NCBI RefSeq assembly: GCF_029846175.1
Contig: NZ_JARWAC010000014.1
Coordinates: forward strand, 62,001 to 126,000
DNA: 64,000 nucleotides
Direction of reading: 5' to 3'
Source: Sphaerisporangium sp. TRM90804
GTDB lineage: Bacteria > Actinomycetota > Actinomycetes > Streptosporangiales > Streptosporangiaceae
The notes below the pieces were generated by a model, which was given only the letters and a program-made list of their open reading frames with translations, was not told where the DNA came from and ran no database searches. Below, one piece after another: positions 1-21,165 of this stretch. Position 1 is the stretch's first letter; each line of letters opens with the position of its first letter. The translations under genes and the position numbers were made by a program.

Positions 1-1
1 G

Positions 2-1156
2 GGGGTGGACGTCCTGGTGGGCGACGGGTCCCTCTACCACGCCGGCTTCGTCGTCGACGGCAGCGGAGCCGGCTCCCCGCTCGTGCGCAGGCTCGAAGCC
101 GAGGACGCCGAGCCGCGGCTGCGCTCCCGCTCGCGGGTCCTGGCCACGCACATGCACGGGGTGACCCCGTTCGAGGACTGCGTACGCCTGGAGGACTACG
201 GGCGGGCCACTCCCTGGTCCAAGGGCACGCTCAGCCACCTGTTCCCCGGCGGATGGCTTCAGGTGGCGCACTTCGACAACGGCGAGGACCCGGTCAACCC
301 ACTGGCCAGCGTGGTGCTCAGCGTGGATCCCGCGCGGTTCGCCGACCTGCCCGCCGGCCCCGAGGACGCGTTCCGCGAGGTGATCGGGCGGTTCCCCAGC
401 CTGGCCCGGTCGTTCACCCGCGCCGGCGCGGCGCGGCCGTGGACCTCGGCCCGGTTGTGGCAGCGCACGGCCGGCCAGACGGCGGGCGATCGCTGGTTCC
501 TGTACGACCGTACGGTCAGCCGCAACGACCTGTTCCTGTCACGGGACGTCACCATGGGCGCCGAGATGGTGCACGCCCTGGCCCCGGTGCTGATCGAGGC
601 GGCCAGAGGGGACGACTGGCCGGCGCGGCGGCTGCGGCGGGTGGCCCTGTTCCAGGACCGGCTGGTGGACTTCAACGACCGGCTGCTCCAGGCCGCCCGC
701 ACCGCCACCGCGGACTTCCGCCTGTGGAACGCCTACTCCCGCGTGTGGCTGCTGTGGTCGATGCTCTCGGCCCTGTCGCTCAAGAGCGCACGCAACCACT
801 GCCTGGCGACGTCCCGCTGGGACGACGTGGAACGCGACCGTGACGACGCGTTCTGGTTCACGCCGCCCGCCGGGCTGCCCGAGCTGCTGGAGCGGGTGTT
901 CGGCCTGTTCGCCGAGGTGGACGGCGGCACGCGTTCCGCGGGCTCCGCGGCCACGGAGATCTTCGCCCTGCTGCGCCGGGCGCCGTTCGTGCCGCCGGTC
1001 TACCGGTTCGCCGACCCCGGGGCCCGCTACTACCACTTCTCCACGGCCCGGCGGCTGCGGATGCTGGTGTGGTCCAAGACCACGGCGCCCGCGGAGTTCC
1101 GCACCATGATGACCAAGGAGAACATCACCAACGTCCGCCCTCCCGCCGTGCACTGA
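2..1156 (+). CDS. Flavin-dependent halogenase, C-terminal part (5' end outside window)
   Basis: The open frame runs in from the left edge, so this is the C-terminal ~385 residues of a protein that is probably ~500-600 long; the N-terminal GxGxxG FAD site is missing only because the window starts here. The visible start resembles the end of the FAD domain (FVVDGSGAGSPLVRRL). It is followed by GWLQVAHFDN, which aligns in position with the halogenase core WxWxIP region, and then by a helical tail. Family members use FADH2, O2 and chloride to halogenate pyrroles, phenols or carrier-bound acyl groups. The flavin reductase ending convergently at 1209 and the prolyl-AMP ligase/dehydrogenase pair next door suggest a pyrrolyl or phenolic substrate in a pyralomicin-type pathway. 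It could also be a related flavin monooxygenase; the diagnostic N-terminal lysine region cannot be seen. Confidence 0.75.
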   Translation, partial: GVDVLVGDGSLYHAGFVVDGSGAGSPLVRRLEAEDAEPRLRSRSRVLATHMHGVTPFEDCVRLEDYGRATPWSKGTLSHLFPGGWLQVAHFDNGEDPVNPLASVVLSVDPARFADLPAGPEDAFREVIGRFPSLARSFTRAGAARPWTSARLWQRTAGQTAGDRWFLYDRTVSRNDLFLSRDVTMGAEMVHALAPVLIEAARGDDWPARRLRRVALFQDRLVDFNDRLLQAARTATADFRLWNAYSRVWLLWSMLSALSLKSARNHCLATSRWDDVERDRDDAFWFTPPAGLPELLERVFGLFAEVDGGTRSAGSAATEIFALLRRAPFVPPVYRFADPGARYYHFSTARRLRMLVWSKTTAPAEFRTMMTKENITNVRPPAVH

Positions 1157-1160
1157 GCGC

Positions 1161-1192
1161 GGGTGCCGGCGGGCCGCGGCCCGCCGGCACCC
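1161..1192. terminator. Bidirectional terminator between halogenase and flavin reductase
   Basis: This is a perfect inverted repeat with 15-bp arms (GGGTGCCGGCGGGCC and its complement) around a 2-base centre. It lies in the 52-base gap between two convergent genes. There is no clear T-tract, as is common in high-GC actinomycetes. Confidence 0.7.
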
Positions 1193-1208
1193 CCCGGGGG
1201 TGGCACCC

Positions 1209-1796
1209 TCAGCGCAGCACCTCGGCGTAGCCGCCCCGCCAGTACGCCAGCGGGAGGCGGTCGGGGCCGCAGCCGCCGCCGATGAGCCGGCCCATCAGGA
1301 GCGTGTGGTCGCCGGCCGGCACCGTCCTCTCCAGTTCGCACTCGGCGTGCGCCACGACGTCGGCCAGCACCGGCATGCCGCTCACCCGTCCGCGTCCCCA
1401 GCGCACCCGGTCGAACTTGTCCGGCAACGGGGAGGCGAAGACCTGCGAGACCTGCCTGGCGTTGTGGTCGAGCATGTTCACGGCGAACCGGCCCCGCACC
1501 AGCACCGCGGCCAGCGTGCCGCTGCGGTTGCTGACGCCCGCCAGCAGCAGCGGCGGCTCCGCGGACACGCTGCACACCGCCGAGCAGGTGAAGCCGCGGG
1601 GGACTCCCGCGCCGTCGGTGGTCGTGACGACGCACACGCCGCTGGCGAAGGACCCCATGACCGTGCGGAAGGTGTGGGAGTCCACCGAGGGCGGCGGCCG
1701 GTCGGGACGGTGGTCCACCTCGGTCATGGGGAACATGTCGGGCGCGGTGCACTCGGCGTCCATGGACGTCGCCGGAAACGCCTCCCGCGCGCTCAT
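1209..1796 (-). CDS. Flavin reductase (split-barrel FMN-binding) partner of halogenase
   Basis: The protein is about 195 residues. A short variable N-terminus is followed by a flavin reductase-like split barrel from about residue 35. The visible motifs are a TFRTVMGSFASGVCVVTT start, a phosphate-binding stretch around SNRSGTL, and PAGDHTLLMGRL, which holds the conserved G-D-H. Such enzymes reduce FMN or FAD with NAD(P)H and release free reduced flavin, which flavin-dependent halogenases need. The ATG at 1796 was chosen because it overlaps the stop of the upstream ligase as ATGA; a longer in-frame extension inside the ligase gene is unlikely. It is the last gene of a tightly coupled minus-strand operon (antiporter, dehydrogenase, ligase, reductase). 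Confidence 0.85.
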   Translation of the reverse strand: MSAREAFPATSMDAECTAPDMFPMTEVDHRPDRPPPSVDSHTFRTVMGSFASGVCVVTTTDGAGVPRGFTCSAVCSVSAEPPLLLAGVSNRSGTLAAVLVRGRFAVNMLDHNARQVSQVFASPLPDKFDRVRWGRGRVSGMPVLADVVAHAECELERTVPAGDHTLLMGRLIGGGCGPDRLPLAYWRGGYAEVLR

Positions 1797-3301
1797 CGAG
1801 CGCCCCCCTGCTCCGCCACCGCCAGCAGGCGTTCGCGGTCGGTCTTGCCGTTGGGCGTCCGCGGCAGCGCGTCGAGCAGCCGCAGGTGGTCCACGATCAT
1901 GTAGGGCGGCAGCCGCTCCGCGCACCGGCGTTTGAGCTCCAGCAGGGACGGGCGCCGGTTCGGCGCCGCCACCACGAACGCGTACAGGCGCGACCTGACC
2001 TCCTCGCCGATCGCCAGGACGGCGATGTCGGCGACGGAGTCCAGCGAGCCCAGGGCCGTCTCGATCTCTCCGAGCTCGACGCGATGGCCGCGCACCTTGG
2101 TCAGATGGTCGCGCCGGCCGACGAAGTGCAGCTCACCGCCGGGGCCGAAGCGGCCGAAGTCGCCCGTACGGTAGGGCCCGGTCTGCGGCTCGCGCCCCCA
2201 GTAGCCTTTCATCACCGTCGGCCCGCTCACGACGATCTCGCCGACGCCCTCCTCGTCGGGCGACAGCACGTCCACCGTGTCGCCGCTGCACGCGTACCCG
2301 ATCGGCAACGGCCGATCGCGCGCCAGGTCGTCGTCGGACACCTCGTGGGACGTGCACACGTTGGTCTCCGTGGGCCCGTACCAGTTGAGCAGCCGCACCT
2401 CGGGCCAGTGTTCCGCCAGCGCCCGCAGGTGCGGCAGGGCGAACGGCTCTCCGGCGAACACACACGCGCGCAGCCCGGGCGGCGGCTCCCGGTCGAGCAG
2501 GCCGCCTTCGCAGATCATGAGGCTCAGCGCCGAGGGGACCGAGTACCACACGGTGATGTCCCGCTCGTACAGGAACGAGGTGAGCTGTTGCGGCAGGTAG
2601 GCGGTCTCCTGCGGGATGAGATGCACCGACGCGCCCGTGGAGAAGGCGGCGTAGAGGTCGAACACCGACAGGTCGAAGGTGAACGGCGCGTGGTTGGACA
2701 GCCGGTCCTCCGGCCGCACGCCGACCTCCCGCACCGCCCAGTCGACGAACGCCAGCGCGTTGCGGTGGCTCAGGCAGACGCCTTTGGGGGTCCCGGTGGA
2801 TCCCGAGGTGTAGAGGATGTACGCGGGATCGTCGCCGCCGGCGGGATCGCCGCTGTCCGGGTCGCCGTCCCGCGCCGGGCCGCCCGCCGCGCCGCTCCCG
2901 TCCGCGGCCGGTCCCGGCAGGTCCGCGAGCCGGACGACCGGCGTGGCGTGGCCGGCCTCGGCCGCGAGCCGCCGGGCGCCGTCCTGGTCGGCGACGACGA
3001 GGGCGGGCGCGGCGTCCCGGACGATCTGGGCCACCCGGGTCACCGGGTTGGTGTCGCTCACCGGCACGTAGACGGCGCCGAGGCGCAGCGCCGCCTGCAT
3101 CACCGCGATCGCGCCGGCGTGTTTGCCGGTCCAGACGACCACACGGTCGCCCCGGCGTACCCCGCGCTCCCGCAGCGCCCTCATGTGGCGGCCGGACAGC
3201 TCGTCCAGCGCCCGGTAGGTCGTCGGGCCGTCGCCGTCGTGCACGGCGACGGCGTCCGGGTGGCGCAGCGCGCTGTCGACGAGCAGTCGGTGCAGTTTCA
3301 C
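1793..3301 (-). CDS. L-prolyl-AMP ligase (stand-alone adenylation enzyme)
   Basis: This is a 502-residue ANL-family adenylating enzyme without an attached carrier domain. Core motifs are present: YILYTSGSTGTPKGV (P-loop-like A3), FTFDLSVFDLYAAF (A4, with the Asp that binds the amino group), NWYGPTETN (A5), YRTGDFGRF (A7), GRRDHLTKVRGHRVELGEIE (A8) and PNGKTDRERL (A10, catalytic Lys). Its coupling to an acyl-CoA dehydrogenase-like gene matches the PltF/PltE and RedM/RedW logic. In those systems L-proline is activated, loaded on a peptidyl carrier protein and oxidised to pyrrolyl-2-carboxyl-S-PCP. The GTG start at 3301 overlaps the stop of the dehydrogenase gene (GTGA). The carrier protein is not in the window and should lie to the left. 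Proline specificity is inferred from context. Confidence 0.85.
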   Translation of the reverse strand: MKLHRLLVDSALRHPDAVAVHDGDGPTTYRALDELSGRHMRALRERGVRRGDRVVVWTGKHAGAIAVMQAALRLGAVYVPVSDTNPVTRVAQIVRDAAPALVVADQDGARRLAAEAGHATPVVRLADLPGPAADGSGAAGGPARDGDPDSGDPAGGDDPAYILYTSGSTGTPKGVCLSHRNALAFVDWAVREVGVRPEDRLSNHAPFTFDLSVFDLYAAFSTGASVHLIPQETAYLPQQLTSFLYERDITVWYSVPSALSLMICEGGLLDREPPPGLRACVFAGEPFALPHLRALAEHWPEVRLLNWYGPTETNVCTSHEVSDDDLARDRPLPIGYACSGDTVDVLSPDEEGVGEIVVSGPTVMKGYWGREPQTGPYRTGDFGRFGPGGELHFVGRRDHLTKVRGHRVELGEIETALGSLDSVADIAVLAIGEEVRSRLYAFVVAAPNRRPSLLELKRRCAERLPPYMIVDHLRLLDALPRTPNGKTDRERLLAVAEQGGAR

Positions 3302-4437
3302 AGTCCCAGCTCCCTCGCGATGAGTTGTCGTTGGATGTCCGAGGTTCCGGAGAAGATCACCGAGGGCACCGCGTCACGGAGCGCCGCCTCGATGCCGTCC
3401 CCGCGCAGGTAGCCGCGGGCGCCGAACAGCCGGACGGCGTCCAGGGCGCTGTGCAGCACCCCCTCGGAGACGGCCAGCTTGGACAGGGCGGTCGCGAGAA
3501 CGGCCCGCTCGCCCTGGTCGATCAGCCAGCAGGCGCGGTACAGCAGCAGGCGGGCGCTCTCGGTGCGGAGCGCCATGTCGGCGACGCGGTGGGAGACGGC
3601 CTGGAACCGGGAGATCGGCTCGCCGGACTGCCGCCTGGCGCGGACGTGCTCGGTGACCTGTTCGAGCACGCGGTCGGCGAGCCCCAGGTACCCGGCGAAC
3701 AGGCAGGCGCGCTCCCAGCCCATGGAGTGCTGGAAGATCGGCCCGCCCTGCCCCGGGTCGCCCAGCACCCGCCCGTCGGGCACGAAGCAGTCCTCGAACC
3801 GGACCGCGGCGGCCAGGCAGTCGTCCAGGCCGAGCTTCGCCAGCGGCGTGCCGACGTGGACGCCGGGCGCGGTGCGGTCGACCACGAAGGCGGTCTGCCC
3901 GAAGTAGCCGGCCTCGGGGCGGGTGGTGACGTAGGTGAGGAACACGTCGGCGACGGGGCCGTTGCTGACGAAGCTCTTCTCCCCGGTGAGCACCCAGCCG
4001 CCTGCCACCCGCCGTGCCCGTGCGGCCAGCACGGAGACGTCCGACCCGGCCTCCGGCTCGGTCATCGCGTTTCCCGCGACCGCCTCGCCGGCGCACAGCT
4101 TCGGCAGCAGCTCCGCGCGCAGGTCCGGACTGCCGAACTCGGCGATCGGCATGGCGCACGCGAACAGATGGGCGGCGGCGCCGAACACCAGCCCGGTGTG
4201 CGGGCATCCCCGGCCCAGCGCCTCGAACGACCGGGCCGTGTCGAGCGCGCCGAGCCCCTGCCCGCCGTAGCCGACCGGCACGCAGGAGCCGAGCACCCCC
4301 AGCTCGGCGAGGCTCCGCCAGTGCCGCCGCCGCCCGCCCGCCGGCTCCTCGCCGTGCGTCCGCGCGCAGACGTCCCGCACCTCGTCGAGCAGGCGCTCGT
4401 ACCTGCCGGACTGCTCCTTGCTCCAACTGAAGTCCAC
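3298..4437 (-). CDS. L-prolyl-PCP dehydrogenase (acyl-CoA dehydrogenase family)
   Basis: This 379-residue flavoprotein has the full acyl-CoA dehydrogenase layout: an N-terminal helical domain, a central beta domain (AMTEPEAGSD near residue 125) and a C-terminal helical domain ending in IFSGTSDIQRQLIAREL. The Glu of GIEAALRD, about residue 350, sits where the family's catalytic base is found. Beside a prolyl-AMP ligase the likely reaction is the FAD-dependent oxidation of carrier-bound proline to pyrrole-2-carboxyl thioester, as in PltE, RedW and CloN3. AGAGGAGG stands just before the GTG start. The gene begins 15 bases after the antiporter stop and overlaps the ligase start, so the genes are co-transcribed. 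Confidence 0.85.
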   Translation of the reverse strand: MDFSWSKEQSGRYERLLDEVRDVCARTHGEEPAGGRRRHWRSLAELGVLGSCVPVGYGGQGLGALDTARSFEALGRGCPHTGLVFGAAAHLFACAMPIAEFGSPDLRAELLPKLCAGEAVAGNAMTEPEAGSDVSVLAARARRVAGGWVLTGEKSFVSNGPVADVFLTYVTTRPEAGYFGQTAFVVDRTAPGVHVGTPLAKLGLDDCLAAAVRFEDCFVPDGRVLGDPGQGGPIFQHSMGWERACLFAGYLGLADRVLEQVTEHVRARRQSGEPISRFQAVSHRVADMALRTESARLLLYRACWLIDQGERAVLATALSKLAVSEGVLHSALDAVRLFGARGYLRGDGIEAALRDAVPSVIFSGTSDIQRQLIARELGL

Positions 4438-4452
4438 CGGATCCTCCTCTGG

Positions 4453-5760
4453 TCAGCGTGTGGGCAGGACCGACACCGAGGCGACGGCGTCCAGGGGCGG
4501 GCCGGCCCCGTCCCGCAGGGAGGGCGCGCGCCGCAGCGTCAGGGACAGCAACGGGGAGGCCATGGCCGTGGTGACCACGGCCATCACGACCATGGCGCTG
4601 AAAAGCTGCGTGTTGAGCAGCCCGAGCCCGAGCCCGACGTTGAGGATCACCAGTTCGGTCAGGCCTCTGGTGTTCATCAGCAGCCCCAGCACCAGCGAGC
4701 CGTTCGTGCTCATCCCGCTGAGCCTGGCCGGCACCGCCACCCCGCCCAGCTTGCCGAGGCACGCCACCACGATGATCCCCAGCGTGACCAGCAGGGTGAC
4801 GCCGGTGAGCGTGGTCAGGTCGACCGACAGTCCCGTGACGACGAAGAACACCGGCATCAGAAGCGCGCCGACCCGCTCAAGCGGCCCCTGCACCGCCGAG
4901 CGCAACGCCGGCGAGGGCGACCTCGGCATCACCAGGCCGAACATGAAGGCCCCGAAGATGGCGTGGATGCCGATGACCGAGGTGGTGTAGGCCGACAGCA
5001 GGACGCCGGCGGTGGTCAGCATGGCCAGCCAGGGGTGCGCCGCCGGGCCCACCCGCCGGAAGGCGGACGCGAGCAGCGGCCGCACCAGCGTGAGCATCAC
5101 GACGACGTAGACCACCGACCAGACGATCACCATGACGAACCCGCCCGTGCCCGTGGCCGCCACCAGGGCGACGACCACGGCCAGCACCGACCAGGCGAGC
5201 ACGTCGTCGGCCGCCGCCAGGGCGAGCGCGAGCGTGCCCACGCGGCTGTCCTGCAGCCGGTGCTCGGCGATGATCCTCGCCAGCACCGGGAACGCCGTGA
5301 CGGACATGGCCACGCTCAGGTAGAGCACGAAGTTCGCCGGCTCGACCTGGCGGCCGTCCACCGTGCCGTAGGCCGGGTACAGCACCCACGCCAGCGCCGC
5401 GCCCAGCGCCATGGGGGTGGCCATCGACGACAGCCAGATCAGGCCCGCGCTGCGCCGGTGCTCGCGCATCGCGGCCGGGGCGAACTCCCAGCCGACGATG
5501 AACAGGAAGAGCAGCACCCCGACCTGGGCCACCACCGACAGATGCGGCCGGAGTTCGGGGGGGAACAGCAGGTTGGTCAAGTCGCCGGGAAACAGTCCGA
5601 GAACGCTGGGGCCCATGACGATGCCCGCCCCGATCTCGCCGATCACCGCCGGCTGGCGCAGCAGCCGGGCGATGAGGACGGCCGCGGTCGCGACCAGCAG
5701 GATCAGCCCGATCCCGGCCACCGTCGTCGTGATCTGCCATTCCACATGATGCTCGTGCAC
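4453..5760 (-). CDS. Cation:proton antiporter (CPA2/Kef-type)
   Basis: This 435-residue integral membrane protein has about 12 hydrophobic helices and no TrkA-N or other cytoplasmic domain. Its layout (IGEIGAGIVMGPSVLG near the N-terminus, helix pairs with buried Asp residues such as AAADDVLAWS, and FGAFMFGLVMPRSP) is that of the monovalent cation:proton antiporter-2 family. It exchanges Na+ or K+ for H+, or in some clusters may export product. The GTG start is preceded by GGGAGGAG. It leads the minus-strand operon for pyrrole formation. Related antiporters occur in several antibiotic clusters, but a role in self-protection is inference only. Confidence 0.8.
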   Translation of the reverse strand: MHEHHVEWQITTTVAGIGLILLVATAAVLIARLLRQPAVIGEIGAGIVMGPSVLGLFPGDLTNLLFPPELRPHLSVVAQVGVLLFLFIVGWEFAPAAMREHRRSAGLIWLSSMATPMALGAALAWVLYPAYGTVDGRQVEPANFVLYLSVAMSVTAFPVLARIIAEHRLQDSRVGTLALALAAADDVLAWSVLAVVVALVAATGTGGFVMVIVWSVVYVVVMLTLVRPLLASAFRRVGPAAHPWLAMLTTAGVLLSAYTTSVIGIHAIFGAFMFGLVMPRSPSPALRSAVQGPLERVGALLMPVFFVVTGLSVDLTTLTGVTLLVTLGIIVVACLGKLGGVAVPARLSGMSTNGSLVLGLLMNTRGLTELVILNVGLGLGLLNTQLFSAMVVMAVVTTAMASPLLSLTLRRAPSLRDGAGPPLDAVASVSVLPTR

Positions 5761-5872: not shown

Positions 5873-5948
5873 CGGCGGCGCCTACACGTGGACTCAAGGC
5901 GGTCCGCCGCGACGCCGGCCGGCGGACGCGAGAGGGGATGTGAGCCGC

Positions 5949-7256
5949 ATGAGACGGATCCTGGTCGCCACCACTCCGGGTGAGGGCCACGTGAACGGGA
6001 TGGTGGAGGTGGCCCGCGCCCTGGTTCGCGGCGGGCACGACGTGCGCTGGTACACCGGGCGGGCGTTCCGCCCGAAGGTGGAGGCCACCGGCGCCGTGTT
6101 CGCGCCGATGCGCGCGGGGCACGACTGGGGCGGCAAGACGCGTGAGGAGGCGTTCCCGCACCATGCCGGGCTCACCGGCATCGACAGCATGGCCGCGGCC
6201 TTCCGGGACATCTTCTTCCGCCCGGCCTACGGGCAGATGCGCGACATCGAGGCGATCCTGGATGAGTTCCCGGCCGACGTCGTCGTCACGGGCGAGACGA
6301 TCTTCGGCGCCAACTTCGCCGCGGAGCGCCGCCGCATCCCCATCGCCTGGGTGGCCACCTCCGTCTACATCTTCGGCAGCCGCGACACCGCCCCGCTCGG
6401 CCTCGGGATGCGCCCCGACGCCAGCCCGGCGGGCCACCTGCGCAACCGGGCGCTCAAGCGGCTCTCGCGCACGCTGGTCAAGCCCATTCGCGAGCTGCGC
6501 GCGGAGGCGGACGTGACGCGGTCGCGCGCGGGCTTGACGCCGATCGACGCGGGCCCGTTCGAGAACATCGTGCACCCGCCCGACCTGTACCTGATGGGCA
6601 CGGTGCCGTCCTTCGAGTACCCCCGCGGCGACATCCTGCCGCAGACGCACTTCGTCGGCCCCTTCGTCGGCCCGCCGCCGCAGGGCTTCGAGCCGCCCGC
6701 CTGGTGGGGGGAGCTGAAGGGCGGGCGCCCGGTGGTGCACGTCACCCAGGGCACGGTGGCCAACGACGCCGACAGGCTGCTGGCCCCCGCGCTCGCGGCC
6801 CTGGCCGACCTGGACGTGCTCGTGGTGGCGACCACCGGCGTTCCGCCCGAGTCGCTCGACCTGGGCCCGCTGCCGGCCAACGTCCGGCTGGAGCGCTTCC
6901 TGCCGCACTACGAGCTGCTGCCCCACGTGGACGTCATGGTGACCAACGGCGGATACGGCGGGGTCAACACCGCCCTGTCGCACGGCGTCCCGCTCGTGGT
7001 CGCGCCGGCCACCGAGGAGAAGCACGAGGTGGCGGCGCGGGTCGGCTGGTCGGGGGTCGGCATCGGCCTCAGACGCCGCGCGATGACGGCCGACAGGATC
7101 CGCCGGGCCGTGAGCACGGTGCTCGCCGAGCCCTCCTACCGGCGCAAGGCGCGCGCGCTGAGCGAGGAGTACCGCCGGCACGACGGGCCGCGACGCGCGG
7201 TCGAACTCATCGAGCGGCTCGCCGGCTCGCGCCGCTCGGCTCCCGTCGGCGAGTGA
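5949..7256 (+). CDS. GT1-family glycosyltransferase, candidate N-glycosyltransferase
   Basis: This 435-residue GT-B glycosyltransferase of the macrolide/UGT type has an N-terminal acceptor domain (RRILVATTPGEGHVNGMVEV) and a C-terminal donor domain. The donor motif reads TNGGYGGVNTALSHGVPLVV, with Asn in place of the usual first His of HGG. In a pyralomicin-type cluster the expected job is transfer of glucose or a nucleotide-activated C7-cyclitol to the pyrrole nitrogen; a GT of this type (PrlH) is required for pyralomicin in Nonomuraea spiralis. ATG 5949 is preferred because AGAGGGG lies 11 bases upstream; GTG 5940 is in frame but too close to that site. A downstream GalT-type gene follows after 25 bases, so donor activation and transfer are probably co-expressed. 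Confidence 0.82.
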   Translation: MRRILVATTPGEGHVNGMVEVARALVRGGHDVRWYTGRAFRPKVEATGAVFAPMRAGHDWGGKTREEAFPHHAGLTGIDSMAAAFRDIFFRPAYGQMRDIEAILDEFPADVVVTGETIFGANFAAERRRIPIAWVATSVYIFGSRDTAPLGLGMRPDASPAGHLRNRALKRLSRTLVKPIRELRAEADVTRSRAGLTPIDAGPFENIVHPPDLYLMGTVPSFEYPRGDILPQTHFVGPFVGPPPQGFEPPAWWGELKGGRPVVHVTQGTVANDADRLLAPALAALADLDVLVVATTGVPPESLDLGPLPANVRLERFLPHYELLPHVDVMVTNGGYGGVNTALSHGVPLVVAPATEEKHEVAARVGWSGVGIGLRRRAMTADRIRRAVSTVLAEPSYRRKARALSEEYRRHDGPRRAVELIERLAGSRRSAPVGE

Positions 7257-9361: not shown

Positions 9362-9451
9362 CACACCTCGTTTTCGTGGGGGCGAGAAATCTCTGACCCG
9401 GTCGCGAGGCGAGCCTAGGAGTGAAAGCTTGAGCGGCGGTGGAGTGGTCTT

Positions 9452-12205: not shown

Positions 12206-12226
12206 TGCGCAGATCAACGTACTAGG

Positions 12227-13398: not shown

Positions 13399-14040
13399 AT
13401 GTTCAGCGTGATGTTGGCGATGGAACTGCGCATGGTGCGCGGCGCTTTCGCCGTCATGTTAGAAATGGACTCCGACCTCACCGTTGTGGGCGAGGCGGAC
13501 AAGGCGCAGTCCGTGCTCCGCACCGCACAGCGCTGTCGTCCCGACGTCGTCGTCCTCGACGCCGACATGATCGACGGTTCCGCGATCACCGTCGCCGCCG
13601 ACCTGCACGCGCACATGCCCACGTGCCGGACCCTCCTGATCGCCGCGCGCAAGTCTCCGGAGCTGCTGCGGCGCGCGATGAAGGCGAACGCCTCCGGCCT
13701 GCTGCTCAAGGACTCCCCGGCCGGGGAACTGGTGCGGGGAATCAAGGCGGTCGCCGCGGGTGAGCAGATCGTGGACCAGGAGCTCGCCATCGCCGCGCTC
13801 AACGCCCGGCCGAACCCGTTGTCCAAGCGTGAGGTGGACATCCTGGTGCTGGTGGCCGCCGGGGCCGAACCCGCCGAGATCGCCAAGAAGCTCGACCTGA
13901 GCATCGGCACCGTGCGCAACTACCTGGCCAGCATCGTCACCAAGCTGGACGCGCGCAACCGCGTGGACGCCATCCGCATCGCCGACGAGTTCGGCTGGCT
14001 GCTTCCAGCGGTCGAGCCGGTGCTGCCCGACGCCTCGTGA
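13399..14040 (+). CDS. Atypical NarL/LuxR-family response regulator (orphan)
   Basis: The 213-residue protein has a receiver domain (1-~120) and a C-terminal LuxR/NarL HTH (~140-205: PLSKREVDILVLVAAGAEPAEIAKKL, SIGTVRNYLASIVTKLDARNR). The phospho-acceptor Asp seems kept (VVVLDADMIDG). The usual acidic pair at the end of beta-1 is replaced (MFSVMLAMELRMVRGAF), which should weaken Mg2+ binding and phosphorylation. No sensor kinase gene lies nearby. Such atypical regulators in antibiotic clusters often answer to small molecules instead of phosphorylation; that role is inferred. ATG 13399 follows GGGGAG very closely; ATG 13411 and GTG 13408 are in-frame alternatives. Confidence 0.8.
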   Translation: MFSVMLAMELRMVRGAFAVMLEMDSDLTVVGEADKAQSVLRTAQRCRPDVVVLDADMIDGSAITVAADLHAHMPTCRTLLIAARKSPELLRRAMKANASGLLLKDSPAGELVRGIKAVAAGEQIVDQELAIAALNARPNPLSKREVDILVLVAAGAEPAEIAKKLDLSIGTVRNYLASIVTKLDARNRVDAIRIADEFGWLLPAVEPVLPDAS

Positions 14041-14122: not shown

Positions 14123-14698
14123 TCAGGGGCCGGGCGGGCGCGTGCGGCGGGTGCGGTCGAGCAGGGTGAGCGCGGCGAGGGACAGGCCGTCGACGAAGCG
14201 CCCCTCGGTGATCATCAGGTTGAGATCGTCCTCGCTCACCCAGCGCTGTCGCATGTCGGCCTCGGTCGCCTCCCGCTCCGGCTGCCACTGGGTCAGCCCT
14301 TCGGCCAGGAACACGTGACAGCCCTGGTTGGAGTACCCGTGCGCGACGTGGACCCGTCCGAGGTAGGTGAGCGAGTCGGCGACGAGGCCGGTCTCCTCAC
14401 GCAGTTCGGTGGCCGCGAGCCGTTCCGGGCCGCGCGGGCCGGGCCCGTCCGCCGGCGGCGCGACCTCGGCGGAGGCCGGCCAGGAGCCCTGCGGGAACTC
14501 CCAGAAGCGATCGGCGACGGGGTAGCGGAACTGCTCGACGAGGTGGAATCCGCCGTTCTCGCTCGGCAGGACCAGGGCGAGGTCCTGCTTGTCGACGACG
14601 CCGTACAGGCCGACCGAACCGTCTGGCAGCTCGACGTCATCCTCTCGCACCGACATCCAGGCGTTGCTGTACACCAGACGTGAGCGGAGCGTGTGCAC
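14123..14698 (-). CDS. Nudix hydrolase (ADP-ribose pyrophosphatase-like)
   Basis: The protein is about 191 residues. The fold is that of ADP-sugar/ADP-ribose pyrophosphatases: an N-terminal strand region (RSRLVYSNAWMSVREDDVELPDG), FRYPVADRFWEFPQGSW, then the Nudix helix AATELREETGL. In the Nudix box the usual Arg of REUXEEXGU is Thr (TELREETGL) and a Pro/Gly-rich insert precedes the helix. The EE pair that binds metal is kept. GTG 14698 was chosen because GGGAGG stands 5 bases before it. It lies on the same strand as the cyclase, 177 bases downstream. It may recycle or cleave nucleotide sugars in the cyclitol pathway, or be unrelated. Confidence 0.75.
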   Translation of the reverse strand: MHTLRSRLVYSNAWMSVREDDVELPDGSVGLYGVVDKQDLALVLPSENGGFHLVEQFRYPVADRFWEFPQGSWPASAEVAPPADGPGPRGPERLAATELREETGLVADSLTYLGRVHVAHGYSNQGCHVFLAEGLTQWQPEREATEADMRQRWVSEDDLNLMITEGRFVDGLSLAALTLLDRTRRTRPPGP

Positions 14699-14875
14699 GC
14701 CTACCTCCCTGGTCACCCACCGCGGTTCGCGTCGCGCACAGCCTACTGACCCCCGTGTCGCGCCGGGCGCCGCCCGCCCGGGACGGTGCCGGCGCCGCGC
14801 GGTGTCCCGCCTCCGCCTCCGGCTCGGGCGGGAGGCGCCCGCGCCCACCCGGGCGGCCCCGGCCTCGCGGCCGGG

Positions 14876-16102
14876 TCAGGCCGCCACGTCCTCCCTGCGG
14901 TGCCCCATGCTCCGCAGCTCGGCCAGCGCGCCGGCCAGCTCCTCCTCGGTGAGGTCGTCGACGAAACGCGCCTCGCCGAACCCGACGGGAAGCGGAAGCC
15001 GCTGGCGGCCGTCGCGATGGCGGACGGTCTCCTGCAGCGCCGTGGTGATCAGGTCGGGGGTGCACACGGGGTGCCAGGAGGGCAGGCGGAGCTCGCGCAT
15101 CAGCCGGATGACCCGGTCCTGCTGCTCTCGGGTGAGCCACCCGCGGCGGCGCGCGAGCACCGTGCAGAACGCCATGTCCACGCAGACCGCCTCTCCGTGC
15201 AGCAGCTCCGGCAGCGCGTGCATCTCTACGGCCGGCGAGAAGGAGTGCCCGTAGTCGACCAGCCGGGTGAGACGGTGCTCCCACAGGTTCGGCTGCAGCT
15301 CGGACAGCATTCCCTGGATGGCGCGCCGGATCACCTCCGTGGCGCACGCGCCGCCGTCCAGGCTGCCCGCGCCCTGCATGCGCTCGGCGATCAGCCGCTC
15401 CCCGTGCCCCTCCAGCAGATCCAGCAGCGCGGCGTCCTTGACCAGGGCCATCTTCAGGATCTCGGCCAGGCCGTTGGCCATGTGGCGCTCGCTCAGCGTG
15501 CGCAGGAAGCTCCTGTCGATGAGGGTGGTGAGCGCCGGGTGGTAGGCCCCGAGCCGGTTCTTGTGATGGCCGAGGTTGACCCCGGTCTTCGCGCCGACGC
15601 CCGCGTCGATCATGCCCATCAGCGTGGTGGGCACGCGCACGTGCGGCGTGGACCGCCGGTACAGGCTGGCGGCCAGCCCGACGACGTCGGTCAGCACGCC
15701 GCCGCCGAAGGCGATGACCGGCTCGGCCCTGCGCACGATCCCGAACCGGTCCATGGCGGCGACCACGGTCATGACCAGGTCCATCGTCTTCACCTGTTCG
15801 TGCGCGCTGATGACCACGGTCTCGTGCTCCACCTTCTGCGCGGTGAAGTAGGCGGAGATCTCGTAGCCGTAGAGCTCGTGCACCGTGCTCTCGACGACGA
15901 GAAGCCGTCGCCGCGTGGCCGGACCGCCGAGCGTCCCGGCGTCCGCCAGGGCCGGATCGGCCGGATCGAGCAGATCGGAGTGCAGCCGCACCTCGTAGCT
16001 CACCGGCTGCCTGGTGGTGAGCCGCCACGACGGCTCCGCGGCCCCGCCGGAGCTGAACAATCCCTGTTCGGACACCTGGTCGACCTGTGCTGATCCCGGC
16101 AT
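14876..16102 (-). CDS. Sugar phosphate cyclase, 2-epi-5-epi-valiolone synthase type
   Basis: This ~408-residue dehydroquinate-synthase superfamily enzyme has an NAD site (AFGGGVLTDVVGLAASLYRR) and zinc-ligand motifs GLAEILKMALVKD, DYGHSFSPAVEM and LLHGEAVCVDM. The substrate loops read MIDAGVGAKTGVN and GHSFSP rather than DHQS QVDSSVGGKT and GHTFGHA. This is the pattern of EEVS enzymes, which cyclise sedoheptulose 7-phosphate to 2-epi-5-epi-valiolone, the entry to C7-cyclitols such as acarbose, validamycin and pyralomicin. ATG 16102 with AAGGGAG upstream fits better than the ORF start 14 codons further out. It is divergent from the kinase operon, with SARP-like repeats between. Confidence 0.88.
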   Translation of the reverse strand: MPGSAQVDQVSEQGLFSSGGAAEPSWRLTTRQPVSYEVRLHSDLLDPADPALADAGTLGGPATRRRLLVVESTVHELYGYEISAYFTAQKVEHETVVISAHEQVKTMDLVMTVVAAMDRFGIVRRAEPVIAFGGGVLTDVVGLAASLYRRSTPHVRVPTTLMGMIDAGVGAKTGVNLGHHKNRLGAYHPALTTLIDRSFLRTLSERHMANGLAEILKMALVKDAALLDLLEGHGERLIAERMQGAGSLDGGACATEVIRRAIQGMLSELQPNLWEHRLTRLVDYGHSFSPAVEMHALPELLHGEAVCVDMAFCTVLARRRGWLTREQQDRVIRLMRELRLPSWHPVCTPDLITTALQETVRHRDGRQRLPLPVGFGEARFVDDLTEEELAGALAELRSMGHRREDVAA

Positions 16103-16209
16103 GACACTCCCTTGCCAGCCCTCCGCTGGGCTGTCTGCTCGCACGGCTTCCCGGCCTGCCCGGCGTGGGCCCGCAGGCGGATGTCAGATGCGAGCCTCGA
16201 TCCCCCTCC

Positions 16210-16227
16210 TCAAATCCAGCTCAACTC
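16210..16227. promoter_or_regulatory. SARP-like heptamer repeats in the cyclase/kinase divergent promoter
   Basis: TCAAATC (16210-16216) and TCAACTC (16221-16227) are direct repeats exactly 11 bp apart. This matches the spacing and TCAAxxx-like core seen before the glycosyltransferase (5855-5872). They sit in the 207-base gap shared by the cyclase and the kinase operon. No -10 element lies at the ideal distance toward the kinase, so the direction of action is open. Confidence 0.45.
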
Positions 16228-16309
16228 CGCCGGGCACGCCCGGTCCACCGCGACTCCAGCGGCCGCTCCTAGCGTCGGGCGAATCCGTCACCTGGGAGGG
16301 GAGTCCGAC

Positions 16310-17323
16310 ATGTCGCGGCCGATTTCGGTGCTGGACGTTGGAGGCACCCACCTGCGCTGGGCGACGTGGAGCCGCGGCGACGGGCTCGGGCCGGTCGGCC
16401 GAGCGCCGACGCCGAGCCTGGCCAACGGACTGCTCTCGCCGGTGGACGAGCTGCGGGCGCGGCTGGTCGCGATGATGGCGCGGGCCGTGCCGGAAGGCGG
16501 TGTGGCCGGGGTCTCCTTCGGCGCCGCCCTGGACCATCGCTCGGGGACCGTCTACGCGTCGGCCCCGCTGTGGGGATCCTGCACCCGCCCGTTCGACCTG
16601 CTCGGCGCACTGTCGGCCGCCCGGCCGGACGTCCGCTGGCACGTCGTCAACGACGTGACCGCGGCCCTGCTGCACCTGGCGGCCGGCCTGGCCGGCGAGC
16701 GGTGCCGCAAGGTGCTGCTCGTCACCGTCAGCACGGGGATCGCCTGCCGGGTGCTCGACCGCCGCAGCGGCGAGATCCCCGTGGACGGCTGCGGCCTGCA
16801 GGGGGAGATCGGGCACCTGCCCGGCGGGGTGTCGATGGCCGGACGCCCGGTCGACCTGCGCTGCGAGTGCGGCGAGATGAACCACGTCTCGTCGTTCTCC
16901 TCCGGGCCCGGCATCCGGCGGCTCGCCCGGGTCCGGCGCGAGCGAGACCCGGACGGCTGGCGGGGTTGCGGGCTCGACGTCCAGGGGCCGTTCGAGGAGT
17001 CCCTGGCGAGCGCGCTCGACGCCGGTGATCCCGTGGCCGAGGACGTCCTCCGGATGGGCACGCGGCCGGTAGCCGACGTCGTGCGCACCGCGATGTGCCT
17101 GGACCCCGAGCTGGATCTCGTGGCCTTCACCGGAGGCGTGGTGCACGCGCTGGGCGCCCACTACCGCAGGGAACTGCTCCGCCACCTCAGCGCTCGCGGA
17201 CTGTACCTGACCAGCACGCTGGCCCCTGACTGGGTGCGGGACCGCGTGCTCGTCTGCGGGCGAGGGCAGGCGGACTGCCTGGTCGGGGCGGGGCTCGCGG
17301 CCGAGCTGGCGGCCGGGTCGTGA
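16310..17323 (+). CDS. ROK-family kinase, candidate C7-cyclitol kinase
   Basis: The 337-residue kinase has an ASKHA/ROK fold: N-terminal phosphate loop VLDVGGTHLRWATW, VSFGAALDHRSGTVYASAPLWG, NDVTAALLHLAAGLAG, and the ROK zinc-type motif EIGHLPGG followed by DLRCECGEMNHVSSFSSG. Glucokinase relatives ValC and AcbM phosphorylate valiolone-type cyclitols, so a cyclitol is the likely substrate here. ATG 16310 has GGGAGGGGAG before it. It opens a four-gene operon whose members overlap by 1-4 bases, so expression is translationally coupled with the two dehydrogenases and the epimerase. Confidence 0.85.
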   Translation: MSRPISVLDVGGTHLRWATWSRGDGLGPVGRAPTPSLANGLLSPVDELRARLVAMMARAVPEGGVAGVSFGAALDHRSGTVYASAPLWGSCTRPFDLLGALSAARPDVRWHVVNDVTAALLHLAAGLAGERCRKVLLVTVSTGIACRVLDRRSGEIPVDGCGLQGEIGHLPGGVSMAGRPVDLRCECGEMNHVSSFSSGPGIRRLARVRRERDPDGWRGCGLDVQGPFEESLASALDAGDPVAEDVLRMGTRPVADVVRTAMCLDPELDLVAFTGGVVHALGAHYRRELLRHLSARGLYLTSTLAPDWVRDRVLVCGRGQADCLVGAGLAAELAAGS

Positions 17324-18441
17324 CGGCCGCCCACCGCGCGATCGTCCGGACCGCAGGCACGGTCGCGCTCGGCACCCGGCCCACGGCCGAGCCGGGCCCC
17401 GGCGAGCTGAGCCTCGAGGTGGTGGTGGCGGGGCTGTGCGGCACCGACATCCAGATGCTGCGCGGGCTGCGGGACGACGGGGCCGCCGTGATCGGCCACG
17501 AAGGGCTGGCGCGGGTCGTGGCCGCGGGCCCCGGCGCGCCGTTCACGCCGGGCACCCCCGTGCTGGTCAACCCGACCCACCCGGCCGACCCCTCGTTCCT
17601 GCTCGGCCACAACGTGGACGGGCTGCTCCAGGAACGGGTGATCGTGCCCGCCACCGCCGTCGAGGGCGGCATGGTGCTTCCCCTGGGTGCGCCGGAGACC
17701 CCCGAGGACGCGCTCACCGCGCTGCTGGAGCCGCTGGCCGTCGTGCACTACGCGCTGGAGATCCACCGCCGGTTCGCCCCGGCCACGCTGCTGGTCGTCG
17801 GGGACGGGACCGTGGGGCACCTCGCCGTCCGCGCCGCGCGTCACCTGCTGGGCCCGGTGCGCGTCGTGCACGCGCACCACACCCCGGCGGGCCTGGCGTG
17901 GAGCCGGGGCGGCACGCCCGCGGCGGATCTGACGCTGCTTGCCGAGGACCTCGGCTCACTGCCCCCGGCGGGGGGAACGGTCTGCGTGCTGCTCGCGACG
18001 CCCCGTGACGCCACGCTGCCGCTGCTGGAGCGGGTGCTCGGGCTGGGGGAGGACACGCTGGTGGTGGACATGGTGGGCGGCCTGCCGCCCGGCGCGAGGA
18101 CGCCGCTGCTGCCGGGCGTCGACCTGGCCGCGGTCCGCGCGGCGAACTGCGGCGGGATCCCGGCCGTGCCCGTCGTGGCCGAGGCGACCACCCCCGCGGG
18201 GAGCCGCGTCGTGCTCTACGGGCACCGCGGAGTGGCGAACCGGCATCTGAGGGCCGCGGCCAGGGAGTTGACGGCCTTCCCGGGGCGCTACCGCGCGCTG
18301 CTGACCCACGAGACCGACCTCGCCGGCGCGGTGGGCGTCCTGCGTGCCCTGGCCGGTTCGTCCGGCCGGGTGATCGAGGGCAGGCGGCTCGTCAAGCTGG
18401 CCGTCCGTATCGGCGCGTCTGAGACCTGGAGGAATCGGTGA
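17320..18441 (+). CDS. Zinc-type (medium-chain) alcohol/cyclitol dehydrogenase
   Basis: The 373-residue MDR-superfamily protein has catalytic-zinc residues in CGTDIQML, GHEGLARV and LLEPLAVV. Its NAD(P) fold starts at LLVVGDGTVGHLAVRAARH. The structural-zinc four-Cys lobe is not evident, as in several aminocyclitol dehydrogenases (NeoA/BtrE-type) and threonine-dehydrogenase-like members. The probable role is oxidation or reduction of a ring hydroxyl on the C7-cyclitol (phosphate). The GTG start overlaps the kinase stop as GTGA. The substrate is inferred from the operon only. Confidence 0.78.
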   Translation: MTAAHRAIVRTAGTVALGTRPTAEPGPGELSLEVVVAGLCGTDIQMLRGLRDDGAAVIGHEGLARVVAAGPGAPFTPGTPVLVNPTHPADPSFLLGHNVDGLLQERVIVPATAVEGGMVLPLGAPETPEDALTALLEPLAVVHYALEIHRRFAPATLLVVGDGTVGHLAVRAARHLLGPVRVVHAHHTPAGLAWSRGGTPAADLTLLAEDLGSLPPAGGTVCVLLATPRDATLPLLERVLGLGEDTLVVDMVGGLPPGARTPLLPGVDLAAVRAANCGGIPAVPVVAEATTPAGSRVVLYGHRGVANRHLRAAARELTAFPGRYRALLTHETDLAGAVGVLRALAGSSGRVIEGRRLVKLAVRIGASETWRNR

Positions 18442-19208
18442 TGGGGGACAACCCGGGAGGGGCGCTGAGTGGGCGCCGGGCTCTGGTCGTGGGAGGGTCG
18501 GCCGGGATCGGCCGGGCGGTCGCGCAGGCGTGGGCCGCGGCGGGCGCCGAGGTGGTGGTGTGCAGCCGCACGGAACCGGGCGGGCCGGGAGCGGGCGCCC
18601 TGGGCTGGCGGCCGGTCGACCTGACCGACGCCCGGCAGGCCCGCGCCCGCCTGACGGAGCTCGGCTCGCAGCCGCTGAGCATGGTGTGCTTCTCCGCGGT
18701 TCACTACGGAGAGCGGCGCACCCGGTTCGCCGGAATCGGCGAGGCGGAGTGGCGCCGTCAGTTCGAGGTCAACGTGGCCGGGCTCTGGCTCACCCTGGCG
18801 GCCACCCTGCCGTCGTTGCGCGACGCCGCGCCGGGCCTGCTCCTGGCGGTGTCCTCCGAGGTCGCCTTCAACGCGGGGCCGGGCCGCGCCGGGTACGCCG
18901 CCTCGAAGGCGGCGGCCAAGGCGCTGCTGGACTCGGTGGCGCGGGAGGAGGACCCGGCTCGCGTGCGCATCGTGCAGATCCTGCCCGAGGGCATGGTCGA
19001 CACCCCCGGCATCAGAAGGCGCAGGAGCGACGGCTTCGACTACAGCGCGTACATGCGTCCGGAGGCGTTCGCCCGTGTCGCGGTCCACCTGGCGGGGGCG
19101 GCCGGGCATGGCCACCACGGGGACAGCCTGGTGGTGGCCGGCGACGGGAGCTGGTGGCCGGTCGAAGACCGCCTTCCCGGCTCGCAGAGCAGGCCCCTGC
19201 CGGCATGA
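18441..19208 (+). CDS. Short-chain dehydrogenase/reductase
   Basis: The ~255-residue classical SDR has cofactor motif VVGGSAGIGRAVAQAW near the N-terminus, FSAVHYGE in the NxxG region, catalytic Ser in LAVSSEVAFN and YxxxK in YAASKAAAK. ATG 18441 overlaps the preceding stop (TGATG) and has GGAGG 8 bases upstream; GTG 18438 is an equally linked alternative. In this operon it probably reduces or oxidises the cyclitol ketone that comes from 2-epi-5-epi-valiolone. Confidence 0.8.
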   Translation: MGDNPGGALSGRRALVVGGSAGIGRAVAQAWAAAGAEVVVCSRTEPGGPGAGALGWRPVDLTDARQARARLTELGSQPLSMVCFSAVHYGERRTRFAGIGEAEWRRQFEVNVAGLWLTLAATLPSLRDAAPGLLLAVSSEVAFNAGPGRAGYAASKAAAKALLDSVAREEDPARVRIVQILPEGMVDTPGIRRRRSDGFDYSAYMRPEAFARVAVHLAGAAGHGHHGDSLVVAGDGSWWPVEDRLPGSQSRPLPA

Positions 19209-20047
19209 GCGCACGCGGCTGCGTGATCGGGCTGGCCGAGTGGCGGCTGCCGCGATCGGGTGCGGACGCCGTCCGGTACGGGGCCCGGGTCGGCGCCGAA
19301 GGGCTGCAGCTCGACTTCGGCGGCCCCGGCCGGGGCGAGTGGGCCGACGCCCCCGGCCGGGCCCGCGCGCTGCGCGAGGCGTCGGCGGCGACGGGGGTGG
19401 CGCTGCTGGCGCTGGCGGGCAACGTCCTCAACGACGTCGGCCTGGCGCCGGCGCCGGGCGGCCCGGCCGAGGCCCGGGTGCGGCGGCTGCTGGCCCGCCT
19501 GCTCGACACCGCCCGTGAGCTGGCGGTGCCGCTGGCCTTCGTGCCCAGCTTCCGGCGCGGCGCCATCAAGGGACCGGCGGCCTTCGCGCGCACGGCGCGG
19601 ACGCTGGCGTGGGCGGCGGCCGAGGCCGAGGCCCGCGGCCTCCTGCTGGCCAGTGAGAACGTGCTGCGGGTGGCCGGCGCGCGTGCGCTGGTCGAGGCCG
19701 TCGGCTCGCCGGCGTTCCGGCTCGTGCTGGACACCTTCAACCCCGTGCACGCGGGGCTCGACTGCGCGCGGCTGGTCGCCGGGACCGCTCCCTGGCTCGC
19801 CGACCAGGTGCACCTCAAGGACGGCCCGCCCCCGGTCGGGGAGACGCCGCCGCTCGGCCGGGGGAGCGGGCGCCTGGAGGCCACGCTGGCCGCGCTGGGC
19901 CGGCGCCGCGCCCGCGTCGCCGCGCTCGTCCTGGAGAACGACTACCGCGGCGGCGGGGCGGACCGGATCGCGGCCGACCTCGCCTGGGCCCGCGCCGCGG
20001 TGCTGCGGCACGGGCTGGGCCCCGGGAAGGACGCCCGCGCCCGCTGA
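19205..20047 (+). CDS. Sugar phosphate isomerase/epimerase (TIM barrel), candidate cyclitol epimerase
   Basis: The 280-residue protein has the xylose isomerase-like TIM-barrel layout: GLAEWRLP start, ALAGNVLNDVG, a Glu on the barrel (ASENVLRV), VLDTFNPVHAG with the metal-binding Asp, QVHLKDG and a final Glu in LVLENDYRG. These acidic and His residues form the divalent metal site used in 1,2-enediol or epimerisation chemistry. The validamycin pathway uses a different (VOC-type) epimerase, ValD, so this could be a replacement for the epimerisation step. Its ATG overlaps the SDR stop by ATGA. It ends the cyclitol operon. Confidence 0.75.
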   Translation: MSARGCVIGLAEWRLPRSGADAVRYGARVGAEGLQLDFGGPGRGEWADAPGRARALREASAATGVALLALAGNVLNDVGLAPAPGGPAEARVRRLLARLLDTARELAVPLAFVPSFRRGAIKGPAAFARTARTLAWAAAEAEARGLLLASENVLRVAGARALVEAVGSPAFRLVLDTFNPVHAGLDCARLVAGTAPWLADQVHLKDGPPPVGETPPLGRGSGRLEATLAALGRRRARVAALVLENDYRGGGADRIAADLAWARAAVLRHGLGPGKDARAR

Positions 20048-20331
20048 ACGCCCGGCGGTGAAAGCGCGACGGCGCACCGGCGCAATACGCCACAAGACGT
20101 ACCGGCGGGACTTCGGTCGGTCATCGTTCTTTCGACGCCGTGAAATATTAATATCGGGACCGGTGATCTATCCCGGCGGCCCGGTGACTCCTTCACTGGC
20201 TGATTCGGTATGGCTCTGTCAGAATGGGTGTCAAGTGGATAACGGGAGTGCGGCCTTTCCGTGTGGCGAGCAGCGAGGGGCGGCGGCTCCAGTTTCGAAG
20301 GCGACGATATCGATGAGAGGAGCTCTTCGAA
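20048..20331. promoter_or_regulatory. Leader and promoter region of the SARP gene
   Basis: This is a 284-base gap without a gene. It includes an A/T-rich island with the palindrome ATATTAATAT (about 20147-20156), unusual in this GC-rich setting, and GAGAGGAG at 20315-20322 as the SARP ribosome site. No clear -35/-10 pair was found. Confidence 0.35.
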
Positions 20332-21165
20332 TTGGAGGTCAAAGTTCTTGGACCGCTCACAGCCCGGCAGAATAAAATGGATATTCTCCCCAGCGCCCAC
20401 AAGCCGCGGCAGATTTTCGCGCTTCTGGCGCTGAACGGGAACAACATCGTGCCCGTTCACATCCTCATCGAGGAGATCTGGGGAGAACGCCCGCCGCGCA
20501 GTGCGGGGACCACGCTGCAGACCTACATCCTGCAACTGCGCAAGAAACTCGCGGACGCGCTGGGCGAGGGCGCCTGGCGCGGGCCCAAGGACGTGCTCGT
20601 CACACGCAACGGCGGATATCTGCTCAACGTGCCTCCGGGCGCCTGCGACACCGACGACTTCGACAGGTTGTGCCGGCGGGCGAGAAGCGCCTCGGACGCC
20701 TTCGACGCCTACCGGTTGTTCAACCAGGCGCTCGCGCTCTGGCGCGGGCCCGCGCTCGTGGACGTGCCGGTCGGGCGGACGCTGGAGCGTGAGGTGGTGC
20801 GCCTGGAGGAGACCAAGATGAAGGCGCTGCACGAGCGCAACGAGGTCGGACTGCGCCTGGGCCTGCACATCGAGCTGCTCAGCGAGCTGGCCTCGCTGAG
20901 CAGGCACAACCCGATGAACGAGAACCTGCACGCCCAGTGCATCGTGGCGTTCTACCGGGCGGGGCGCACCTTCGACGCCCTGGAGACCTACCAGCGGCTG
21001 CGCCGCACCATGGTCGAGGAGCTGGGCCTGGAGCCGTCGGTGCGGCTGCGCAGGCTCCAGCAGGCCGTGCTCACCGCCTCGCCGGAACTGGAGCCCCCCG
21101 AGACCAGGATGCCGCCGGCGCGGCACATCAGGCGCGGCGCGTCCCCGAGGTCGAGGTACTCCTAG
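20332..21165 (+). CDS. SARP-family pathway activator
   Basis: The 277-residue regulator has a winged-helix OmpR-type DNA-binding domain (residues ~1-95; VKVLGPLTAR...RQIFALLALNGNNIVPVHILIEEIWGERPP, LQTYILQLRKKL) and a bacterial transcriptional activator (BTAD) domain (~100-255), with no ATPase or TPR extension. This is the short ActII-ORF4/DnrI type that activates single biosynthetic clusters by binding heptamer direct repeats. Two candidate repeat sites occur at 5831-5872 and 16210-16227. The start is TTG 20332, with GAGAGGAG nine bases before; no ATG fits better. It marks the likely right border of the cluster. Confidence 0.88.
   Translation: MEVKVLGPLTARQNKMDILPSAHKPRQIFALLALNGNNIVPVHILIEEIWGERPPRSAGTTLQTYILQLRKKLADALGEGAWRGPKDVLVTRNGGYLLNVPPGACDTDDFDRLCRRARSASDAFDAYRLFNQALALWRGPALVDVPVGRTLEREVVRLEETKMKALHERNEVGLRLGLHIELLSELASLSRHNPMNENLHAQCIVAFYRAGRTFDALETYQRLRRTMVEELGLEPSVRLRRLQQAVLTASPELEPPETRMPPARHIRRGASPRSRYS

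Follow-up and report, generated by a model that had tools for sequence, protein, structure and literature searches.

The pyralomicin biosynthetic cluster (prl) of Nonomuraea spiralis is reported to span about 41 kb and to contain 27 open reading frames, including four halogenases, one methyltransferase, and one N-glycosyltransferase. To our knowledge, the pyoluteorin cluster (plt) has neither a cyclitol arm nor an N-glycosyltransferase. Here, we describe a locus of Sphaerisporangium sp. TRM90804 in which genes for a halogenated-pyrrole polyketide and for a C7-cyclitol stand together, and which is very probably a complete pyralomicin-type cluster, for pyralomicin itself or a very close analogue. 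The window, that is, the whole stretch of 64,000 nucleotides that was analyzed, corresponds to positions 62001–126000 of one contig in a genome of 8,318,024 bases and 86 contigs, and up to about 23 kb of it was studied. The cluster occupies contig positions 42640–83165 (40.5 kb, 27 genes), so that all of it lies on the same contig as the window, which holds its right half. A first-pass annotation of the window had already read it as the right half of a pyralomicin-type cluster or a close relative, with about 19 cluster genes and with polyketide synthase (PKS), carrier protein, and more halogenase genes to be expected to the left. We counted 19 cluster genes at 1–21165, including those for a GalT-like protein, a NUDIX hydrolase, a methyltransferase, and an ABC-F protein. 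The remaining left part was found on the same contig (positions 2001–62000 examined) and comprises PKS1, PKS2, a thioesterase, a carrier protein, halogenases, and another ABC-F gene; the PKS, the carrier protein, and three further halogenase-family genes are within 18 kb of the window. In the following, negative coordinates lie to the left of the window start, and those of the left part are mostly stop-to-stop frames, some of whose starts are too far upstream.

The direct link to the described system comes from two proteins. The GT1 N-glycosyltransferase (5940–7256, + strand) is 83% identical, over 99% coverage, to PrlH (L7SWR8) of N. spiralis IMC A-0156, a member of another genus, and its further matches are named as RebG-like and StaG-like N-glycosyltransferases. 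The GalT-type uridylyltransferase (7282–8385, +; PF01087/PF02744, TIGR00209 above cut-off) is 78% identical, over 100% coverage, to an N. spiralis entry named galactose-1-phosphate uridylyltransferase. In addition, tblastn of the cluster proteins against 80 kb of a relative of the same genus (G220) matched all 27 genes at 54–89% identity (25 initially; the flavin reductase, at 71%, and the carrier protein, at 77%, were added), and 26 of the 27 are collinear, the TetR gene being the exception. The ratio of nonsynonymous to synonymous substitution rates (dN/dS) against G220, computed for 23 of the 27 genes, ranged from 0.126 to 0.468; in this run, the G220 stretch of the SARP gene overran its stop and showed two stops, while its tblastn match was 77% over 259 residues.

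An EEVS-like (2-epi-5-epi-valiolone synthase) match at E ≤ 1e-60 was found in 16 of 341 genomes of the family, and identities above 57% were seen only in the source genome and G220. Nonomuraea NPDC050790 has matches to EEVS (81%), GalT (79%), and the glycosyltransferase (83%) that are each assigned to a contig of 1,397,556 bases, and because this length is shared by all three, the strain probably carries the cluster as well. The data add two instances in a genus other than Nonomuraea, and probably a third in Nonomuraea NPDC050790, of a rare pathway joining a halogenated-pyrrole polyketide to a C7-cyclitol. We found no paper in the open-licence PubMed Central (PMC) literature that joins Sphaerisporangium with pyralomicin. 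The cluster is ordinary in kind and useful in detail, as the orthologous clusters show conserved oddities: a non-halogenating fourth halogenase homologue, a vestigial acyltransferase (AT) in module 2, and an altered GalT.

The first arm resembles the pyoluteorin (plt) and pyrrolomycin (pyr, mcs) clusters, for which the relevant passages of PMC12670696 and PMC10204065 describe a prolyl ligase, a carrier protein, a dehydrogenase, a PltA-type halogenase, two PKS proteins with one ketoreductase (KR), a free thioesterase, and a non-halogenating halogenase homologue (PltD, McsG). The four proteins for making a chlorinated pyrrole are all present in our cluster. Among PDB entries, the L-prolyl-AMP ligase (1793–3301, −; AMP-binding domain) is most similar to 6o6e (429 bits), which is an L-proline--[L-prolyl-carrier protein] ligase. 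The L-prolyl-PCP (peptidyl carrier protein) dehydrogenase (3298–4437, −; Acyl-CoA_dh domains) scores highest with the NCBIfam models RedW (423 bits) and PigA (411 bits), although neither score reaches its curated cut-off (650 and 500, respectively). Judged from these relatives, as are the other catalytic steps given here, L-proline would be adenylated, loaded onto the free-standing carrier protein (−16009 to −15653, −), and oxidized to pyrrolyl-PCP. This would then be chlorinated by halA (−17384 to −15915, −), which we read as a pyrrolyl-PCP halogenase of the PltA type from its closeness to the PDB entries 5buk (714 bits), ChlB4 (693 bits), and PltA (631 bits). A flavin reductase (1209–1796, −; PF01613, E = 1.4e-38) probably supplies FADH2 to the halogenases.

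Chain extension is predicted to follow on two type I PKS proteins, PKS1 (−15242 to −9063, +), with two ketosynthase (KS), one AT, and two acyl carrier protein (ACP) domains, and PKS2 (−9093 to −3865, +), with the order KS-AT-KR-ACP. Together they form three modules with one KR, as the product would require, and would add three units with one ketoreduction, after which the free-standing thioesterase (−15652 to −14816, −) would off-load and cyclize the chain. In AT domains, the fingerprint YPSH is of the methylmalonyl type and HAFH of the malonyl type. The module 1 AT, which has GHSMGE and YPSH and whose nearest solved relatives are 6iyr and DEBS module 3, looks methylmalonyl-type, and the AT of PKS2, with GHSVGE and HAFH, looks malonyl-type. 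After the second KS of PKS1 (frame residues ∼1690–1870), the region is shortened and the AT site lacks GHSxG in both genomes, the lone GHSTGE of the G220 PKS1 falling elsewhere, in a linker. This remnant is 52% identical to its G220 counterpart, with a dN/dS of 0.547 compared with 0.226 for the neighboring KS, and the module 2 AT is, to judge by these features, vestigial. The plt assembly line, by contrast, is described as having a malonyl AT in module 2 (relevant passage of PMC10204065). Speculatively, part of the AT pattern would be accounted for if the module 1 AT served module 2 in trans. In each of the two KS domains of PKS1, the residue 39 positions beyond the catalytic Cys is Met, where PKS2 has Leu, and this is the same in both genomes; the Met appears to be in the position of the one reported as a gate for dichloropyrroles in PltB (PMC12670696, in the part dealing with it).

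Four halogenase-family genes are found in the cluster, and only the fourth lacks the halogenase motifs. hal2 (−3889 to −2204, +) retains GxGxxG and WxWxIP, and hal3 (−2256 to −505, +) retains GxGxxG together with WxWxI (WAWVIA, the final proline being absent). hal3 is nearest in the PDB to the tetracycline 7-halogenase (621 bits), followed by PltM (316 bits), and hal2 shares 48% identity with the G220 copy of hal3; both are read as phenol halogenases, which would chlorinate the aromatic ring. hal4 (−490 to 1156, +; contig positions 61510–63156) starts 490 bases left of the window and is the only one of the four to reach into it, with its 3′ part at 1–1156. In hal4, GTHLAG replaces GxGxxG and WLQVAH replaces WxWxIP, and the G220 copy has GAHLGG and WVQVAH, so that both motifs are lost in both genomes. 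Its best PDB matches are the tetracycline 7-halogenase (247 bits) and PltM (190 bits), and it keeps the stretch GVKRSLGF, whose lysine is presumably the catalytic one. A decaying pseudogene is ruled out, as neither genome has internal stops and the dN/dS of 0.283, within the range of the cluster, indicates that hal4 is under selection. Also ruled out is a role as the pyrrole halogenase, which belongs to halA, 16–17 kb to the left of the window. A non-halogenating halogenase homologue has precedent in PltD and McsG of pyrrolic polyketide clusters (PMC12670696, relevant passage), and by its motif loss and cluster setting hal4 is probably a PltD-type aromatizing dehydratase and not a halogenase; it would dehydrate and aromatize the ring. 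The halogenase named in the first-pass annotation was correctly placed as to family but probably not as to function, and because GxGxxG and WxWxIP are missing, its presence in the window says little for a chlorinated pyrrole. Every other gene named there (ligase, dehydrogenase, reductase, glycosyltransferase, cyclase, kinase, oxidoreductases, epimerase, regulators, and exporters) was recovered in place.

The second arm resembles the early part of the acarbose pathway (AcbC, M, O, L, and N), with an EEVS, a ROK kinase, an epimerase, an oxidoreductase, and a short-chain dehydrogenase/reductase (SDR) in the same roles. The PrlA-type EEVS (14876–16144, −) would cyclize sedoheptulose 7-phosphate. 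In acarbose biosynthesis, AcbM, AcbO, AcbL, and AcbN convert 2-epi-5-epi-valiolone to valienol 7-phosphate (passages of PMC9200736 and PMC7081202), AcbM and ValC being described as similar to ROK proteins (PMC9200736). The same product would be reached here by a ROK cyclitol kinase (16112–17323, +; PF00480) in the role of AcbM, a metal-dependent TIM-barrel epimerase (19208–20047, +; PF01261) in that of AcbO, a medium-chain dehydrogenase/reductase (MDR) oxidoreductase (17320–18441, +; ADH_N) acting like AcbL as a dehydratase to form valienone 7-phosphate, and an SDR reductase (18438–19208, +; adh_short) acting like AcbN to form valienol 7-phosphate. For pyralomicin, PrlW and PrlV were proposed, untested, for the last two steps of the AcbL/AcbN type (PMC7081202, relevant passage). 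Because the epimerase gave no match in the PDB sequence search, a structure model (predicted local distance difference test, pLDDT, 86.8) and a fold search were used, and the best fold was that of UlaE, the L-xylulose-5-phosphate 3-epimerase (TM-score 0.77–0.78), followed by sugar 3-epimerases. Glu146, Asp171, His198, and Glu239, invariant in all five sequences compared, are residues that we take to be the likely metal ligands.

From valienol 7-phosphate onward, the cluster departs from acarbose. By family annotation, its 27 genes include no counterpart of the kinase AcbU, the phosphatase AcbJ, or the nucleotidyltransferase AcbR, and they have GalT and NUDIX instead. Since no AcbU- or AcbJ-like gene is among the 27, the conversion of the 7-phosphate to the 1-phosphate is left without a gene candidate; a direct mutase-like conversion is one prediction made in section 6 of PMC9200736. 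The NUDIX hydrolase gene (14123–14848, −; PF00293) adjoins the EEVS gene and is kept in G220 (70%), with no evident role in the pathway; nor could any of the 27 genes be assigned to formation of the O-bridge of the chromone. No match to NUDIX or GalT was found in any of 14 stretches of 14–20 kb around EEVS-like genes in other genomes of the family.

The GalT bears on how the pseudosugar is activated and is the sole feature beyond the ordinary for such a cluster. The protein carries the HPH motif and the GalT domains, and it is an extra paralogue beside the housekeeping GalT: each of the 11 genomes of the genus carries a single GalT of a class at 56–61% identity, to which the two cluster-bearing genomes add the copy in the cluster. 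We compared four cluster-type copies (window, G220, NPDC050790, and N. spiralis) with nine of the 11 housekeeping copies, one of the others having no locus and one having been dropped by a text pattern, and 29 fixed differences were found. Among them are Asp180 and His339, present in all four cluster-type copies and aligned with Asn153 and Phe312 of Escherichia coli; the housekeeping proteins have Asn in nine of nine and Tyr in eight of nine, respectively. By our own mapping, the E. coli residues would correspond to human Asn173 and Phe335, which are two of the eight residues of the GalT glucose 1-phosphate site (relevant part of PMC5081055); only these two of the eight published contacts are among the fixed differences. 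Five of the 29 differences fall within residues 338–350, against an expected 1.03 (P = 0.0018 in this post hoc test; a scan of all 13-residue windows gives 0.023). The changes fit recruitment for another sugar-1-phosphate-like substrate, whichever it may be, and those at the contact positions suggest a route to a UDP-cyclitol by uridylyl exchange. Tentatively, and at somewhat less than an even chance, we propose that this GalT is a duplicated Leloir enzyme whose hexose pocket was changed for a C7-cyclitol 1-phosphate, that it makes UDP-valienol by exchange with UDP-glucose, and that UDP donors for both the cyclitol and the glucose pyralomicins are thereby offered to PrlH. The PrlH orthologue would then join the cyclitol to the pyrrole nitrogen. 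Such a route would differ from those of AcbR and ValB/VldB, as in acarbose and validamycin biosynthesis nucleoside triphosphate (NTP)-dependent nucleotidyltransferases make GDP-valienol (PMC9200736, section on these pathways), whereas GalT would not start from an NTP.

Two readings would undo the pyralomicin-type assignment, one by separating the two arms and the other by removing the cyclitol. That a pyrrolomycin- or pyoluteorin-type cluster merely lies beside an unrelated C7-cyclitol cluster would accord with the familiar parts list of the pyrrole arm and with the occurrence of cyclitol cassette relatives on their own, at 52–67% identity, in three other loci of the family: L042 has all five genes (EEVS, kinase, MDR, SDR, and epimerase), L043 four (no kinase match), and L045 four (no SDR match), in the genomes G261, G265, and G114, respectively, with no pyrrole-arm match within 20 kb. 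These three are probably other cyclitol pathways. A contig scan of seven EEVS loci of 11–21 kb gave no ligase, dehydrogenase, or halogenase match at E ≤ 1e-8 (PKS matches below 200 bits were omitted, and the queries were other than the flavin reductase and carrier protein). In G220, however, both arms, the regulators, the exporters, and the PrlH orthologue are held together while the flanks are hardly syntenic, and on this conservation we reject two unrelated neighbors as very improbable. Even less credible is that the cyclase is a dehydroquinate synthase (AroB) and the cyclitol arm a misreading, a view that can call on the Pfam domain name DHQ_synthase and on aroB as the best NCBIfam model. 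The match to that model, at 196 bits, is well below its cut-off of 305, which a separate AroB of the same genome exceeds (351 bits), and the best PDB match is 4p53 (492 bits; entry name Cyclase), which we take to be ValA, ahead of 5tpr (243 bits) and 14 others at no more than 136 bits. In a tree of 21 rows, for which 15 of 119 other listed homologues were hand-picked, only three of another 14 EEVS-like loci were included because a pattern missed the other 11, and seven of the 18 inner branches were poorly supported, the two AroB rows are set off by a long branch with full support (Shimodaira–Hasegawa-like approximate likelihood ratio test, SH-aLRT, 100). Dehydroquinate synthase was rejected on the PDB, aroB-score, and tree evidence, and the cyclase is, by these comparisons, a valiolone synthase and not AroB, as the first-pass annotation had held.

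A third alternative is a special case of the pyralomicin-type reading, in which the same logic yields a congener that differs in chlorination, methylation, or sugar. The identities of 78% and 83% to two N. spiralis proteins, and of 54–89% to G220, leave room for small differences in the product. Against this alternative, all 27 genes are paralleled in G220, and N. spiralis itself reportedly makes more than one congener; we consider a differing product rather unlikely, if far less so than the two readings above. Against the pyralomicin-type reading as a whole stand several points. The product is deduced from genes alone, and the matched N. spiralis proteins were only two deposited ones, PrlH and the GalT. 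The name PrlA was absent among the best 120 of 6695 EEVS matches, and no other N. spiralis name occurred among the best 120 matches of each of the EEVS, GalT, and glycosyltransferase searches; many entry names were missing or incomplete, and PrlA could sit under another name in a 90%-identity cluster, for example, P0005. The 27 annotated genes include no second cyclitol kinase, no sugar phosphatase, and no NTP-type nucleotidyltransferase. The halogenase-family gene in the window lacks the motifs of a halogenase, and the module 1 AT looks methylmalonyl-type in a place where the chemistry calls for malonyl, because the alpha carbon of that unit ends inside the aromatic ring beside a ketone.

The remaining genes of the pyralomicin-type cluster encode tailoring, regulatory, and transport proteins. 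A SAM (S-adenosylmethionine) methyltransferase (8516–9364, −; Methyltransf_11; 76% in G220) probably O-methylates the sugar or cyclitol, this substrate being a prediction. The regulators are a TetR protein (12194–12949, +; TetR_N/TetR_C_1), a NarL/LuxR-type response regulator (13399–14040, +; Response_reg and GerE; 86% in G220), and a SARP-family activator (20332–21165, +; BTAD and Trans_reg_C). The TetR gene adjoins that of the MFS exporter (10666–12162, −; PF07690; 74% in G220), while its match in G220 (54%) adjoins the left ABC-F gene. The SARP gene forms the right border, and a border at 21165 fits because tblastn matched neither of the next two genes on the right to anything in the 80 kb of G220. 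When flanking frames of at least 80 aa with GC-rich third positions were compared with G220 on both sides, a single one (window 30484–31575, 34% identical) had a match other than to cluster genes or to frames antisense to them, and its counterpart is 3.7 kb to the right of the SARP gene in G220.

Both ABC-F genes score below the NCBIfam cut-offs. The left one (−19360 to −17678, −; contig positions 42640–44322) has both signature motifs, and that in the window (9452–10666, −; two ABC_tran stretches) encodes a shortened protein of 404 aa whose first domain lacks LSGG[E/Q] and which has diverged in G220 (58%). In producer organisms, ribosome protection is often provided by ABC-F proteins, and the two genes found here may point to the ribosome as the target of pyralomicin; the open-licence PMC literature yielded no paper joining pyralomicin with the ribosome. 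Pyrrolomycins are protonophores, and the CPA2 cation:proton antiporter encoded next to the dehydrogenase gene (4453–5760, −; PF00999; 74% in G220) may therefore serve in self-protection.

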